The notes beneath the pieces were generated by a model. It saw only the letters and a list, made by a program, of their open reading frames with translations. It was not told where the DNA came from and made no database searches. Of a stretch of DNA of 64,000 bases, positions 21,030 to 27,268 are shown piece by piece. The stretch lies in the NCBI GenBank assembly GCA_902613845.1, contig CACMIW010000002.1, positions 62,001-126,000 of the forward strand. The letters are read 5' to 3'. Source of the stretch: an uncultured Alphaproteobacteria bacterium (lineage in GTDB: Bacteria > Pseudomonadota > Alphaproteobacteria > HIMB59). The translations under genes and the position numbers were made by a program. Each line of letters opens with the position of its first letter. The stretch's first letter is position 1.

Positions 21030-22184
21030 ATGAATAACTTATTAAAAACATACAAATTTAGTAATTTTAGAGTGGTAAAGGGTAATGGATGTTATTTATA
21101 CACCTCTGATAAAAGAAAATTATTAGATTTCTCAGCAGGGGTTGCTGTAAATTCTCTTGGATATAATCATCCAGTAATTAAAAATAGCCTTAAAGCTCAA
21201 CTTAAAACAGGAATTACTCATCTGTCAGGATCACAAATACATGAATTTAAAACTAAATTATCTAAGTTACTATCTGATAATTCCAATAAAGGGGATGTAT
21301 TCTTTTCTAACTCTGGTGCCGAGAGTATTGAGGCTGCTCTAAAAATTGCGAGAAATTACGGTAGTAAAAATGGTAAGGATGAGATTATAGCAATGACCTC
21401 CTCTTTTCATGGGAGAACAATTGGGGCTTTATCCGTCGGTAGTAATAAAAAATATAAATCGAATATTGGTCCTGTTCCTGGGAAAGTAAAGTTTTGCAAG
21501 TTTAATGATGTCTCTCATCTCAAAAAATTAGTAAATAAAAAAACGGTAGCAATCATAATTGAATTTGTTCAGGGAGACGGAGGTATAAATATTTGCAGTA
21601 AGAATTTTGCAAAAGCTATAAAAGGAATATGTAAAAATAAGAAAATTTTGCTTATTGGGGATGAAATACAAGGTGGTATAGGTCGAACTGGTAAAATATT
21701 TGCTTACAAACATTACGGTGTCAATCCAGATATCATAACCTCTGCAAAAGGCCTAGGTTCAGGCATCCCCATAGGAGCTACTATAGTTAAAAAATATATA
21801 TCCAAAATTATTTCTACTGGTTTTCATGGCTCAACTTTTGGAGGTGGTATGCTTCAGACAAGAGTTTCATATAATGTTTTTAGAACCATAAATAATAAAA
21901 GTTTTTTAAATAAAGTACTGATTAATGCTAATTTATTATCTTCTCTAATAAAAAAAATGCACCTCTTACACAAAGATAAAATAGTTGATACAAGATGTTT
22001 AGGTCTTATGGCTGGTGTAGAGTTTAAGACTAATGAAATTGCTTCAAAAATATATGAGAAGATTGCTAAAAATGGTCTTATTACTACTCTTATACAAGGA
22101 AATATAATCCGACTTACACCTCCACTAATTGTTTCTAAAAAAGAAATAAATAAAGCTATAAATATTATTTCAGAGTCACTATAG
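21030..22184 (+). CDS. argD: acetylornithine aminotransferase (class III PLP)
   Basis: 384 residues. PLP-binding 'SAKGLGSGIPIGA' holds the Schiff-base Lys240; 'GDVFFSNSGAESIEAALKIAR', 'SSFHGRTIGALSVG' and 'IGDEIQGGIGRTGKIFA' are canonical class III blocks. It converts N-acetylglutamate semialdehyde to N-acetylornithine. The role is supported by argB and argC 2-4 kb downstream on the other strand. 'LSGSQIHEF' varies from the usual motif, so another omega-aminotransferase activity is possible. It ends 20 bases before a perfect terminator hairpin. Confidence 0.85.
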   Translation: MNNLLKTYKFSNFRVVKGNGCYLYTSDKRKLLDFSAGVAVNSLGYNHPVIKNSLKAQLKTGITHLSGSQIHEFKTKLSKLLSDNSNKGDVFFSNSGAESIEAALKIARNYGSKNGKDEIIAMTSSFHGRTIGALSVGSNKKYKSNIGPVPGKVKFCKFNDVSHLKKLVNKKTVAIIIEFVQGDGGINICSKNFAKAIKGICKNKKILLIGDEIQGGIGRTGKIFAYKHYGVNPDIITSAKGLGSGIPIGATIVKKYISKIISTGFHGSTFGGGMLQTRVSYNVFRTINNKSFLNKVLINANLLSSLIKKMHLLHKDKIVDTRCLGLMAGVEFKTNEIASKIYEKIAKNGLITTLIQGNIIRLTPPLIVSKKEINKAINIISESL

Positions 22185-22241: not shown

Positions 22242-22619
22242 TTATAGAGTGATTACTTGATCTGGAGGATTACCACCAAGTGCATTGTATAATTGAGGAA
22301 AACATCCTGCCACTACACCATCAACCAAACCCTTAGCTTTTACATCACCACTTCCGCATTGTTCAAGTGTTCCTTCAGCTAAATTTCTTCTAACTGCACA
22401 GGCATCGCAAACCATTAATAACATATTTTTTTCAATTGCAATTTTCGATAGTTTTTCACCAATAGGATCACCCTTTTTTAAACAAAATATGTTGTCATCA
22501 AAGAAAAACATTCCTGCAACATCAACACCGTGAGAATTTGTCTCCAATTGTGGTAAAATCATTGTTCCTAGTTGGAATGTGCTCGACAAACTTGTTTTAA
22601 AAACATAAGCAATTTTCAT
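22242..22619 (-). CDS. DsrE-family protein (SaoD-like)
   Basis: 125 residues. 'IAYVFKTSLSSTFQLGTMILPQLE' begins a DsrE/DsrF/YchN-like alpha/beta fold; 'MVCDACAVRRNLAEG' supplies conserved cysteines and 'VAGCFPQLYNALGGNPPDQV' is the family's C-terminal block. DsrE-type proteins carry sulfur as persulfide or bind small sulfur species; a sulfur-handling or signalling role is likely. It has a clear ribosome site (AAGGAG) and tandem operator palindromes upstream. No tusBC/dsr partners are present, so it probably acts alone. Confidence 0.8.
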   Translation of the reverse strand: MKIAYVFKTSLSSTFQLGTMILPQLETNSHGVDVAGMFFFDDNIFCLKKGDPIGEKLSKIAIEKNMLLMVCDACAVRRNLAEGTLEQCGSGDVKAKGLVDGVVAGCFPQLYNALGGNPPDQVITL

Positions 22620-22648
22620 AATATCTCCTTATTTTATATTTTAAATGA

Positions 22649-22686
22649 ATGTAATAATATTACATATATATGTAATAATATTACAT
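22649..22686. promoter_or_regulatory. tandem 17-bp palindromic operator
   Basis: Two identical copies of a perfect dyad ATGTAATA-A-TATTACAT (22649-22665 and 22670-22686), 21 bp apart centre to centre, i.e. two helical turns on the same face. They begin 30 bp upstream of the DsrE-like start. A TTGACA on the minus strand (22694-22699) fits a -35 element, with the copies covering the -10 area and transcript start, so a repressor bound here would block transcription. The divergent lyase gene at 22872 is also within reach. The binding protein is not known; ArsR/BigR-type or Zur-like repressors are candidates. Confidence 0.75.
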
Positions 22687-22871
22687 AATTAAATGTCAAG
22701 ACTTGGTTTTGAAAATTTTACCCATACCGTTTTTTGTCTCTGATACATTTGAAAGAGTAACTCTTACTCAAATGATTAAAAGAGAGATTTAAAAAAACAG
22801 TTTAGATATAATCAAAAATAATTGTAATTTTTTTTTTTTGATAATAGGATATTACAAAAAATATTAGTTCA

Positions 22872-24392
22872 ATGATTAAGCTATTCATTTTAATTTTATT
22901 TTTATTTCCAAAAATCTTATTAGGACTAACTATTGGCGATGATGGAAAAATTTCTAGTTCCTCAGAAGAGTCAACATCTAATTTAACAAGTACTAATAAT
23001 GGCGATGTCTTTCTATTGAAAAATGCAGGATTAGCAAGTGAAGATACAACTTTAAATATTCCAGGTGGCTCTGAGCTTGGAAGTAAAAATTTACAAAATA
23101 GATACTCGACATATAAAAATATAATGAAAAAAATAGATTATAATATTCTATCTGTCTTAACTGAAGATACAAGATATGGTGAAACAGCTCTTGTTTTTAG
23201 AGTAGGAAAAGACTGTATCGGAATTAAAGCAGACTGTGCAAGAGGAGAACCTGATAGTGGCGATTATACTAGAGCAGAATTTTCTCCCATTAACTATTAT
23301 GGAAAATTTAAAGATAATGCTTGGACATCTTTCTCATTCAAAATAGTCAGCGAACTTGAAGAATGGTCGCCTGAATTAGTATATATTCAGCAATGGCATA
23401 CAAGAAATGAATTCACTCCACCTATGCATGGATTTGGTTTTAGGAAAGAGTTTGGCCTGGTCTTCAGAACTGAAACTAGTATGGGTATACAAATTGTAGA
23501 TGATGATAACCCTTATTGTAATTCCAGAAAATACTGTCATTTAAAAGACTTAGAACTTTTAGCTATAGAATGGAATGAAATTGAAAAAGATAAATGGATT
23601 GATGTAGTTCAAAATATAAATTTTGACGACGATCCTGAGAAAGGATACATAAAAGTTTGGATTAACGGTAATTTAATAATCGATCATAAAGGCAGAACAA
23701 ATTGGAGCAAGATGCCAGGCTTTAATGCAAATGAGGACTTGGTTTGGGACTATAAATACGGCATATATACAAAATTCAGGGGTCATGAAATGGCTGTGGC
23801 CTATGATGAATTGAGTCTTGGAAGATCATGTGAAAAACTCAAAATTGAAAATTTAGGCTATAATTGCGACGAATTAATTAAACAATCAGCCCCTAAATCA
23901 TTAGCTGTTATTGATACAGAATGGATTTATTCTAATAGAGAAAAAGACGTGAAGTCTGATTATTCTCAAGTGATAATAAATAAATCAAAATATTCATCTA
24001 TTGCCTCAAATGAAAAATTCGAAGATGGCGATTATGAGTTAATGTGGTATTGGAAAATATATGATGATAATGGAAAACTAGAACAGGATGATTATTTAGG
24101 TTCTGATCAAGCAACTATTAGTAATGGAATACTAACATTTACCAAATTAAATAAATCATTTGAAATGGAAAATGATATTCAAAGTAAGAATAGAGAAAAA
24201 ATAAATTTCAAAACAGAAGATGGTTTAATTTTGATTAGTGCAAATTTAGACCTAGCCTCAGATGGAGAGACTGCACCAATGGCAATTGTTGGTTCCACTT
24301 CTAAAAATAAAGATGGTAACTATTATGCTGAAGGTCCTTGGGATGATGAAGGAAAAGAAATTATAGGAATTGCTTTTAAATTAAAAAATTAG
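22872..24392 (+). CDS. exported polysaccharide lyase-like protein (heparin-lyase I family fold)
   Basis: 506 residues, signal peptide in the first ~20 (LFILILFLFPKILLG). The central domain (about 80-330) resembles the jelly-roll Polysacc_lyase family: 'GDYTRAEFSPINYYGKFKD', 'VYIQQWHTRNEFTPP', 'WIDVVQNINFDDDPEKGYI' and 'KVWINGNLIIDHKGRTNW', ending 'YGIYTKFRGHEMAVAYDEL'. A second ~150-residue C-terminal domain is unrecognised. It probably acts on acidic or alginate-like polysaccharide in the periplasm or at the surface. Its 3' end overlaps argB by 4 bases. Confidence 0.7.
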   Translation: MIKLFILILFLFPKILLGLTIGDDGKISSSSEESTSNLTSTNNGDVFLLKNAGLASEDTTLNIPGGSELGSKNLQNRYSTYKNIMKKIDYNILSVLTEDTRYGETALVFRVGKDCIGIKADCARGEPDSGDYTRAEFSPINYYGKFKDNAWTSFSFKIVSELEEWSPELVYIQQWHTRNEFTPPMHGFGFRKEFGLVFRTETSMGIQIVDDDNPYCNSRKYCHLKDLELLAIEWNEIEKDKWIDVVQNINFDDDPEKGYIKVWINGNLIIDHKGRTNWSKMPGFNANEDLVWDYKYGIYTKFRGHEMAVAYDELSLGRSCEKLKIENLGYNCDELIKQSAPKSLAVIDTEWIYSNREKDVKSDYSQVIINKSKYSSIASNEKFEDGDYELMWYWKIYDDNGKLEQDDYLGSDQATISNGILTFTKLNKSFEMENDIQSKNREKINFKTEDGLILISANLDLASDGETAPMAIVGSTSKNKDGNYYAEGPWDDEGKEIIGIAFKLKN

Positions 24393-25240
24393 TACTCAAG
24401 TTCATTTTTTTGGAAAACTGTACCGATGCCCTCCTCAGTTTCAAGTTCAGTTATTAAGGCGTTTTTTATTTCTCCACTAATAATGTGGATTTTTTGAACA
24501 CCTTTATTTAGAGCCTTTAATGAGTTATCAACTTTAACAACCATACCATCAGATATAATATTCTTTTCGAAAAGTTTTTTTGCAACATTTTCATCGACAG
24601 ATGAAATTCTTTTTCCCTCTAGGTCTTTTATATATGGAACATCTGAGATAAATATCAATTTGCTAGCAGAAAGATTAATTGCTAGTTCTGTAGCAATTGT
24701 ATCTGCATTAACATTTAATACTTCAGAGGTATTTTTATCTAAAACTAGGCTTGGCATAATTATCATATCGTGTTCTTTAAATAAGTTTTTAATTTGTAAA
24801 GCGTCTACAGATACAATATCCCCTACTTGACCGTAATCAATTTGATCAACTACTTCTCTTTTCTTTGCTGCTATAAAGTCTTTTTTTGAAATAGGAATAG
24901 GAAAATTTCTAATATTATATCTTGAACTCAAACTAAAAATATCAATTAAAATTTGACCAGATATTTTTTTTGCGGCCTCGATATCTTGAGATGAAGTTAT
25001 TCTTCTGCCATTTATTTTTTTTGGTTCAATACCGTGAATATCAATCATATAATTATCTAGCTGGCGACCAAATCCGAAGACTAAAACAACTTTTAATTTA
25101 GAAATAGAGTTTAATAACTCTTTAATGTCACTAATAACATTATCGATATTATCTTGATTATCGCAAATCTTACCGCTTACTTTTATGACAAGAGTAGAAT
25201 TCTGTAAAATCGACTGATAAAAATTTTGGTTTTTGATCAT
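24389..25240 (-). CDS. argB: acetylglutamate kinase-like amino acid kinase
   Basis: 283 residues. Amino-acid-kinase fold: start 'TLVIKVSGKICDN', 'INGRRITSSQDIEAAKKI', 'VDQIDYGQVGDIVSVD', 'LNVNADTIATELAINLSA' and the end 'EEGIGTVF' match NAG kinases. The first glycine loop, usually HGGG, reads 'VFGFGRQLD', which is atypical. It lies 4 bases into argC on the same strand, with the P-loop protein and alaC upstream, so the operon supports an arginine role (phosphorylation of N-acetylglutamate). Given the unusual loop, a related acylglutamate substrate is possible. Confidence 0.75.
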   Translation of the reverse strand: MIKNQNFYQSILQNSTLVIKVSGKICDNQDNIDNVISDIKELLNSISKLKVVLVFGFGRQLDNYMIDIHGIEPKKINGRRITSSQDIEAAKKISGQILIDIFSLSSRYNIRNFPIPISKKDFIAAKKREVVDQIDYGQVGDIVSVDALQIKNLFKEHDMIIMPSLVLDKNTSEVLNVNADTIATELAINLSASKLIFISDVPYIKDLEGKRISSVDENVAKKLFEKNIISDGMVVKVDNSLKALNKGVQKIHIISGEIKNALITELETEEGIGTVFQKNELEY

Positions 25241-26229
25241 AGATATAATGGAATCATTTGTTTCAATCCTAATGTTTGATCGAAATCAAAAATAATATTC
25301 ATACACTCTACAGCATTACCTGAGGCACCTTTAACTAAGTTATCTAAACACGCCTCTACAACGAAGTGTCTATTATCTTTGAATGATAATGAAATATCAC
25401 AATAGTTCGATCCAATTACATTAGAGAGCTTAGTATTATTTTGTACCCTTATGAAAGGTGTTGATTTAAAGCAATCAATTAAACTGGAATTTAAGGACTC
25501 ATCAGTTGTATCTTCAGATATTTCTATGTGACTTGTTAGGTATATACCTCGAGAGAATGGTCCCGACAGCGGAACAAATGATAGAGACTCCTTTAGATTG
25601 GGAAAAGATTGATAAATTTCAGCTAAATGTCGATGTGCATTTACATTATATGAAAAAATATCTTTAGATCGTGTAGAATGATGATTTTTATTTGAGGGAT
25701 TTTTACCACCACCACTTGATCCAGTTATAGCAGTAATAGATACTTTTTTAATTATAGATTGAAATGGTAATAAAGATAGTTGAGCTGTTAGTGCAAAACA
25801 ACCAGGATTGGATATGTTAGAAGATTTTTTTATGTCATCAATTGAATTTTCAATAAATCCATATTGAAATTTGGTTTGAATGTCAGCATCAAAATTTGTT
25901 TTGTAATATTTGTTATAATCCTCTTGATTAGAAATCCTAAAATCAGAACTTAGGTCTATGATTTTAACTTTTGATAATAATTCTTTAGCATATTCATAAG
26001 CTGAACCATGAGGTAATGATAAAAAAACACAATCGAGATTTTTAAAATCATCAAGATTAGATGTCTGTAAATCTTTTAAATTTAATGACTTTAAATGTGG
26101 AAATTCCTCATCTATTTCCATTTCTCTTTTAAAGATTTTTGATAATTTTACTTCAGGGTGTACAGAGAGAATTCGTATTAACTCAACGCCTAAATAACCA
26201 TTTGCTCCAATTATGCCTACTTTAATCAT
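25237..26229 (-). CDS. argC: N-acetyl-gamma-glutamyl-phosphate reductase
   Basis: 330 residues. NAD(P)-binding 'GIIGANGYLGVELIRIL', catalytic cysteine in 'SNPGCFALTAQLSLLPF', 'GSSGGGKNPSNKNHHS' and 'AHRHLAEIYQSFPNL' are diagnostic. It reduces acetylglutamyl-phosphate to the semialdehyde, the substrate of ArgD. It overlaps argB by 4 bases and the P-loop gene by 8 bases. Confidence 0.95.
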   Translation of the reverse strand: MIKVGIIGANGYLGVELIRILSVHPEVKLSKIFKREMEIDEEFPHLKSLNLKDLQTSNLDDFKNLDCVFLSLPHGSAYEYAKELLSKVKIIDLSSDFRISNQEDYNKYYKTNFDADIQTKFQYGFIENSIDDIKKSSNISNPGCFALTAQLSLLPFQSIIKKVSITAITGSSGGGKNPSNKNHHSTRSKDIFSYNVNAHRHLAEIYQSFPNLKESLSFVPLSGPFSRGIYLTSHIEISEDTTDESLNSSLIDCFKSTPFIRVQNNTKLSNVIGSNYCDISLSFKDNRHFVVEACLDNLVKGASGNAVECMNIIFDFDQTLGLKQMIPLYL

Positions 26230-27268
26230 TATTAATCCTATTAATTATCTTAGCAAAAACATTGACATGGTTAGTTGAATTATAAATATTTAAAAAATCT
26301 GAATTTGGAATAGAAAACTTATCGATTGATTGTTTGTAAGCAGATACATTATTAGTCACTGGTCCACTAATTATAAGTAATTTACCATCTAAATTATTTG
26401 ATTTTAAATTTTCTATTATATTAACTGCTCCAGATACGTCATAAGCACAAATTATAATGACTTCAATTGACTCTGTAATTTCAGTATTTTCAATGATTTC
26501 TTTGGTTCCATAATCGCCATGATAACCATCCCCCAGTTCCATTAAAACTATTTCTGCGTCCTCACACATATAACTAATAATTGACGTTGAGCAGGTTTGT
26601 ATAGTTTTTTTATCATTCATGCATGTACTGGGGAGACCATAATCTACAAAATCTGATGTTTTATATGCACCATTATCCTTATAAGAATATAGATCTTTTT
26701 GCGAGGCGGTGCCTGCTAACTTACATGCATTAATTTTCTTAAAATAATTACTTAGAGTTTTGATTATAAAGGATGTGACAGTAGTTTTACCAGAGTCTAT
26801 ACCTGTTCCGATGACTGCAATAGATGGTACTTTATTGCCAATTTTCATTTCTTTAATTTTTGAATAATCTACTAGATTCAATTGTTTGTTACTATTATCT
26901 ACAATCGATCCGAGGACTTCACATTCTGTAGCTGGTCCAAGAAGAATATTAAAATCTTTACAATTACCAATTACGCCACCTAAATTTAAAATGTGAATTT
27001 TATCGTGTTTATTTAATTCAGTTGGAACAGAACCTGTCATTCCTGAGGAAGCTATTCTATTACCCAAGGCACCAACGATAATATCTCCTTCTGTTAATTC
27101 AGTAATTCTTCCAGAGACTAACTCCAATTTATTATAATTCGGATTGACTGAAATTACTTTAACAGCAATTAATTGACCTTGATTACAATCAATTACATCT
27201 GAAATGTTCAATTCATCAATATTATTGATGTTTTTGAGCACAGAACCTATTTTTTTTGTGTTAATCAT
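26222..27268 (-). CDS. P-loop protein in the argCB operon (DUF1611/DgcN-like, tentative)
   Basis: 348 residues. An N-terminal beta-rich domain (about 1-145) precedes a P-loop ATPase domain with Walker A 'GTGIDSGKTTV' at about 155 and an acidic 'VLMELGDGYHGDYG' block near 245. The layout (N-terminal domain plus C-terminal P-loop) recalls DUF1611, the family of D-glutamate N-acetyltransferase DgcN, but resemblance is weak by eye. It overlaps argC by 8 bases, tying it to arginine biosynthesis, where no N-acetylglutamate synthase gene is otherwise visible. A role in forming or handling N-acylglutamate is an inference. Confidence 0.55.
   Translation of the reverse strand: MINTKKIGSVLKNINNIDELNISDVIDCNQGQLIAVKVISVNPNYNKLELVSGRITELTEGDIIVGALGNRIASSGMTGSVPTELNKHDKIHILNLGGVIGNCKDFNILLGPATECEVLGSIVDNSNKQLNLVDYSKIKEMKIGNKVPSIAVIGTGIDSGKTTVTSFIIKTLSNYFKKINACKLAGTASQKDLYSYKDNGAYKTSDFVDYGLPSTCMNDKKTIQTCSTSIISYMCEDAEIVLMELGDGYHGDYGTKEIIENTEITESIEVIIICAYDVSGAVNIIENLKSNNLDGKLLIISGPVTNNVSAYKQSIDKFSIPNSDFLNIYNSTNHVNVFAKIINRINND

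Follow-up and report, generated by a model that had tools for sequence, protein, structure and literature searches.

Which protein carries out the first step of arginine synthesis in HIMB59, a marine group of Alphaproteobacteria? The question arises from a locus in the window (the whole stretch of 64,000 nucleotides that was analyzed), where an open reading frame for a P-loop protein overlaps argC by 8 nt at its 3' end, and argC in turn shares 4 nt with an amino-acid-kinase gene (Table 1). An earlier note on this DNA had proposed that the P-loop protein may replace or feed the first step, that it possibly forms N-acetylglutamate, and that it recalls the DUF1611 family.

Table 1. Coordinates and layout of the features discussed. 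Positions without a locus prefix are those of the window; gene orders are given for related operons.
Feature	Position	Strand	Remarks
P-loop protein, proposed N-acylglutamate synthase	26222..27268	-	348 aa, ATG start
N-terminal all-beta domain, residues 1-135	26864..27268	-	AlphaFold models, pLDDT 91.2 and 91.0
Walker A GTGIDSGKTT, residues 154-163	26780..26809	-	G154, G160, K161, T162 invariant in 31 sequences
Lys183	26720..26722	-	invariant in 31 sequences; hmmsearch alignment with BioD
ELGDG, residues 244-248, Walker-B-like E-x-G-D-G	26525..26539	-	E244, G246, D247, G248 invariant in 31 sequences
argC, N-acyl-gamma-glutamyl-phosphate reductase	25237..26229	-	TIGR01850, 298 bits (cut-off 233.6)
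argB-like N-acylglutamate kinase	24389..25240	-	TIGR00761, 128.8 bits; PRK05279, 140.8 bits
argD-like acylornithine aminotransferase	21030..22184	+	TIGR00707, 386 bits (cut-off 410); position conserved in genus
L184 transcarbamylase	L184:1221-2306		diagnostic residues Q/P/I
L181 transcarbamylase	L181:7959-8984		diagnostic residues A/P/I
L183 transcarbamylase	L183:5930-7162		diagnostic residues M/P/E
Micavibrionales and Haematospirillum operon			P-loop-argC-argB-argD, usually argF, argG
Micavibrio operon			P-loop-argC-argB-argD-argF
Patescibacteria operon L183			argG-Ploop-argC-argD-argB-transcarbamylase-argH-M20
Patescibacteria operon L181			argG-transcarbamylase-Ploop-argC-argD-argB-AstE/AspA-type-argH
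Planctomycetota operon L184			argR-argG-Ploop-argC-argB-M20-argH; transcarbamylase 7 kb away
Nitrospirota operon L182			Ploop-argC-argD-argB fused to M20 domain

By its sequence, argC is certainly what its name implies. The kinase scored below the cut-offs of both TIGR00761 (acetylglutamate kinase; 151) and PRK05279 (the ArgA kinase-domain model; 344). In alignments it retains K20, N176, D180, and K236, which we take to be the counterparts of the residues that E. coli NAGK uses in catalysis. The GGG loop has become GFG and the KxGG motif KVSG, changes not seen in the Micavibrio orthologue; these altered loops perhaps reflect a changed acyl specificity. The window's genome (1.28 Mb, 92% complete) holds four amino-acid kinases, with open frames of about 405, 376, 249, and 298 aa, which we interpret as aspartokinase, ProB, PyrH, and the operon kinase; the last is the sole NAGK candidate in the genome and the genus. 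The idea that the operon kinase is a remnant of a NAGS was rejected: while ArgA-kinase-domain-like by score, it keeps the NAGK catalytic residues and has no competitor for that role. The argD-like gene lies 2.2 kb from the operon on the opposite strand, convergent with it. The cargo between argB and argD differs among HIMB59 genomes, comprising a secreted lyase-like protein and a small protein in the window (22242-24392) and a pectin-acetylesterase-like protein elsewhere in HIMB59 (L035:3166-4131 and L039:3125-4087).

The earlier note had named the presence of argA or argJ in the genome as a check on its proposal, and neither was found: the window's genome yielded no match to PF01960 (ArgJ), and none of its four amino-acid kinases carries a GNAT extension, ruling out a full ArgA. 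The complete HIMB59-genus genome G030 encodes argG (625 bits), argH (467 bits), an OTC-like protein of 292 aa, argC, argB, and argD, with both ArgJ and ArgE absent.

The P-loop protein was found with an open frame in 42 of the 52 HIMB59-genus genomes, at 62-99% identity. Because the frame is kept open in so many genomes, it lies far beyond chance, and the gene that the earlier note had seen overlapping argC is real. At every HIMB59 locus inspected, argC and the kinase gene lie downstream of it. In genome G039 (locus L042), frame changes that are probably due to sequencing error interrupt many genes, the P-loop gene and argC among them. In the comparison of 100 genomes from the order, all 48 sister-family genomes lack the P-loop protein and 41 of them have ArgJ, which is in turn absent from all 52 genomes of the HIMB59 genus. 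Ten HIMB59 genomes lack the P-loop gene, two of them (G017 and G051) more than 90% complete, which counts against reading it as the synthase.

Since two clades alone provide a weak test, the exclusion test was extended to the whole class, where an alignment search recovered the arg-operon form in the near-complete Micavibrio-type genomes G334 and G415, and ArgJ is absent from G030, G334, and G415 (99% complete). Conversely, ArgJ is present in all 14 alphaproteobacterial genomes that carry only a distant paralogue, located elsewhere. Distant paralogues in ArgJ-bearing Alphaproteobacteria (L103-L119, L359, and L360) are annotated as DUF1611 or dethiobiotin synthase; the neighbors of many are ABC transporter genes together with a sensor kinase and response regulator, and those of others include an isoaspartyl-peptidase-like gene. 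Scanning GTDB genomes yielded 73 loci. ArgJ was found in none of the 30 genomes outside HIMB59 that carry the arg-operon form (Micavibrionales, Haematospirillum, Patescibacteria, Gracilibacteria, Nitrospirota, and Planctomycetota), the assemblies being partly incomplete. In a tree, the arg-operon sequences separate from the paralogues (support 100/97), with several long branches.

Outside HIMB59, argC lies directly downstream of the P-loop gene at 31 of 33 loci, the two exceptions being a contig end and a Gracilibacteria locus. The Ca. Gracilibacteria copy (L180:8998-10014) has no arginine gene within 9 kb and adjoins a priA-like gene, which counts against the synthase reading. The operons of the other phyla are laid out in Table 1. 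In the Planctomycetota cluster, the P-loop gene overlaps its neighbor on either side by 4 nt, and no argD appeared in the sequence examined. The clusters L181-L184 each contain a dedicated deacylase of the M20 or AstE type, and an M20 amidohydrolase lies beside the operon at many Micavibrio loci. In both Patescibacteria operons, enzymes from known families account for every arginine step except the N-acylation of glutamate; because this first step alone lacks one, the P-loop protein most likely makes N-acylglutamate. Such an enzyme-less first step in otherwise complete operons is the main argument for a synthase role. It joins the finding that the P-loop gene sits in arginine operons for which no other known NAGS was found (no ArgJ in either the 30 genomes or the HIMB59 genus). 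Computation across these genomes shows the operon to be conserved, ArgJ to be lost or absent in every case of the arg-operon form, and the remaining pathway to be complete. We therefore consider it likely, on the strength of gene content and context, that arginine synthesis begins with the P-loop protein, which would N-acylate L-glutamate. The earlier suggestion that it replaces this step is thus strongly supported by (i) the lack of ArgJ beside the arg-operon form, (ii) the exclusion in the sister family, and (iii) operons in which only the first step is unfilled.

A further relative, on a Priestia megaterium plasmid (L358, NZ_CP085446.1 88630-89691; 27% identity, 84% coverage), has as neighbors genes for OTC, two ATP-grasp enzymes, thiamine-pyrophosphate enzymes, an M20 peptidase, and a PEP-mutase-family protein. 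This looks like a phosphonate natural-product cluster based on an ornithine-like substrate, which would again be a setting of N-acylation and deacylation.

GNAT-type synthases were examined in HIMB59 and partly in Micavibrio, which has 8-14 GNATs; the window's genome encodes only two PF00583 proteins. The main rival in HIMB59 is that the synthase is a genus-specific GNAT of 142 aa, encoded between cysE and a transporter gene (L032:1459-1887), with the P-loop protein serving as a regulator, chaperone, or kinase partner. This GNAT has no orthologue in the ArgJ-bearing sister family and therefore shares the phyletic pattern expected of an ArgJ substitute, and it is similar in size to ArgO, which together with S-NAGS represents short GNAT synthases of 146-180 aa (PMC4490483; PMC3827942). 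Its gene, however, is not linked to arg genes, its top NCBIfam hits are weak ones to RimI-like models (29 bits), and it leaves unexplained why the P-loop gene occupies arg operons in other phyla that lack ArgJ. We judge this explanation unlikely. A GNAT adjoining miaB, RimI-like by both score and neighbor, was discarded as a synthase candidate.

How the acyl group is later removed bears on a second alternative. No dedicated ArgE was found in HIMB59, a result that counts against our proposal; the M20 protein that the genus shares is DapE, its gene lying downstream of dapD. Consequently, either (i) DapE or (ii) some other deacylase would deacylate acylornithine, or (iii) the P-loop protein would recycle the acyl group. 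The last option would make the P-loop protein an analogue of ArgJ, returning the acyl group of N-acylornithine to glutamate and closing the cycle, and HIMB59 does combine an ornithine-type carbamoyltransferase with the lack of ArgE, as a cyclic pathway would. Several features of the related loci argue otherwise: the in-cluster deacylases of L181-L184, the transcarbamylases of the N-acylornithine kind in L181, L183, and L184, and the M20 gene beside many Micavibrio operons. An ArgJ-like cycle therefore seems less likely again, and synthesis of N-acylglutamate remains the reading that we prefer.

The identity of the acyl group was approached through the knotted transcarbamylases of L181, L183, and L184. 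At three diagnostic positions, AOTCase has E92, N185, and K302, whereas SOTCase has A/S/P/V/Q, P, and V/I/E (PMC4581275). Alignments to the X. campestris AOTCase (chain index = native + 20) place succinyl-type residues at each diagnostic position in L184 and L181 and at two of three in L183. NCBIfam names all three enzymes N-acetylornithine carbamoyltransferase, but, as far as can be told, its model does not separate the AOTCase and SOTCase activities. These residues suggest succinylated arginine intermediates outside Bacteroidetes, and in the lineages of Patescibacteria and Planctomycetota concerned the acyl group is probably succinyl. Because of the SOTCase-type residues, and because HIMB59 possesses DapE, a desuccinylase, and lacks ArgE, the acyl group may be succinyl and the product of the P-loop protein may be N-succinylglutamate instead of N-acetylglutamate; the AstE-type deacylase of L181, like the presence of DapE alone in HIMB59, points in the same direction. 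Against succinyl in Micavibrio, the M20 protein there is closest to DoeB2 (N-acetyl-diaminobutanoate deacetylase) and CpsA, both below cut-off. Of the earlier suggestion of an N-acetylglutamate-forming enzyme, then, the first-step role is well supported, while the acetyl group is placed in doubt.

The predicted fold of the P-loop protein sets it apart from the known enzymes of this step. An AlphaFold model built from the 31 sequences (pLDDT 91.2) predicts a C-terminal domain with a SIMIBI P-loop fold of the dethiobiotin-synthetase type, most similar to HypB, dethiobiotin synthetase, and MeaB (Foldseek E 2e-6 to 2e-4). Together with the Walker A motif, this predicted fold places the protein in the SIMIBI class of P-loop NTPases. 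The N-terminal domain, searched alone against the PDB with Foldseek, gave no significant match (best E 0.41). A single-sequence search of the PDB with the window protein found nothing, and a profile search gave dethiobiotin synthetase as the best match (E 0.01); K183 is aligned there to the lysine that follows helix 1 of that enzyme. The protein is not BioD by model score, the window protein having no NCBIfam match and its relatives reaching at most 12.9 bits against a cut-off of 83.3. Nor does it match PF01960 or any GNAT family, and its predicted fold is a beta domain joined to a SIMIBI P-loop.

Membership in DUF1611, as the earlier note had guessed, would make the P-loop protein a relative of DgcN that acetylates glutamate with acetyl-CoA, as reported for D-glutamate N-acetyltransferase. 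Nine of ten relatives do match PF07755 (DUF1611) weakly at the P-loop, the best at 20.9 bits where the gathering score is 25 bits, and one plasmid relative is annotated DUF1611. The window protein itself, however, has no match to PF07755 at E<=10. With hhalign, only the Walker A region aligned to 14 DUF1611 proteins (34 columns, probability 0.3%, from shallow profiles that may miss a remote kinship); for the wider P-loop family hhalign gave a probability of 100%. The DUF1611 invariants GTDCSxGK and EGQGS are absent, GTxxDSGKTT and E-x-G-D-G standing in the P-loop family instead, and the all-beta N-terminal domain differs as well. HIMB59 has no DUF1611 protein of its own. Membership was accordingly rejected, and we regard this explanation as very improbable; the P-loop protein may, by analogy, work like DgcN.

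In the pathway that we favor, the P-loop protein would N-acylate L-glutamate to N-acyl-L-glutamate, which would pass to the adjacent ArgB-like kinase, then to ArgC and ArgD. The SIMIBI domain could use ATP to activate succinate or acetate as an acyl phosphate, to be attacked by the amine of glutamate; alternatively, acyl-CoA could be the donor. Phosphoryl transfer is the means by which related SIMIBI enzymes activate carboxylates or carbamates, and for this reason we prefer ATP-dependent acylation, at about even odds with the use of acyl-CoA. Catalysis by the P-loop protein is what we infer from all this; a point against it is that no SIMIBI domain is known to catalyze glutamate N-acylation. 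In its fullest form, the proposal would have an ATP-dependent P-loop ligase, a new fold class for this step, join succinate to glutamate in a succinylated pathway spanning Alphaproteobacteria, Nitrospirota, Patescibacteria, and Planctomycetota, with DapE replacing ArgE in HIMB59; as a whole, this is tentative and rather doubtful. That ornithine, N-acetylglutamate, or a precursor is imported and not made from glutamate, the P-loop protein being a regulator, is barely credible: loss of biosynthetic steps is common in small genomes and in streamlined marine ones, but argC, argB, and argD are kept across the genus, and a 5.3-Mb Planctomycetota genome carries the same operon.

The making of arginine is textbook biochemistry, and the enzymes that we found described for its first step are ArgJ or GNAT-type proteins; no paper found in our literature search connects a P-loop protein with NAGS and arginine synthesis as proposed here. 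If confirmed, the protein would represent a new enzyme family for that step and would close the gap that leads automatic annotation to present HIMB59, Micavibrionales, and some Patescibacteria as arginine auxotrophs. If the acyl group is indeed succinyl, succinylated arginine synthesis, so far described for Bacteroidetes, would be used more widely.

Among known systems, DUF1611/DgcN shares with the P-loop protein an N-terminal domain followed by a P-loop domain and, as proposed here, glutamate N-acylation, but homology is undetected beyond Walker A, and both motifs and N-domain differ. BioD and other SIMIBI carboxylate-activating enzymes resemble it in the C-terminal fold, Walker A, the lysine after helix 1, and an E-x-G-type motif, and dethiobiotin synthetase activates a carbamate much as the P-loop domain would activate a carboxylic acid; unlike BioD, the P-loop protein has an extra beta domain and an arginine operon context. 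The N-succinylglutamate synthases of Bacteroides (BT3761) and Caldithrix (Cabys_1732) are likewise the first enzymes of an arginine locus, and succinylated intermediates are likely in the SOTCase-bearing relatives of the P-loop protein; set beside it here by description, that family was, according to a 2017 account, confined to Bacteroidetes and Caldithrix (PMC7311316, PMC5317091). Finally, ArgA, ArgO, S-NAGS, C-NAGS, and H-NAGS, which are GNAT or GNAT-related, and ArgJ serve the same inferred step and are linked to, or required with, argB, argC, and argD; in place of a GNAT or ArgJ domain, the P-loop protein is predicted to combine a SIMIBI P-loop with an all-beta domain, and it probably depends on ATP and possibly transfers succinyl.
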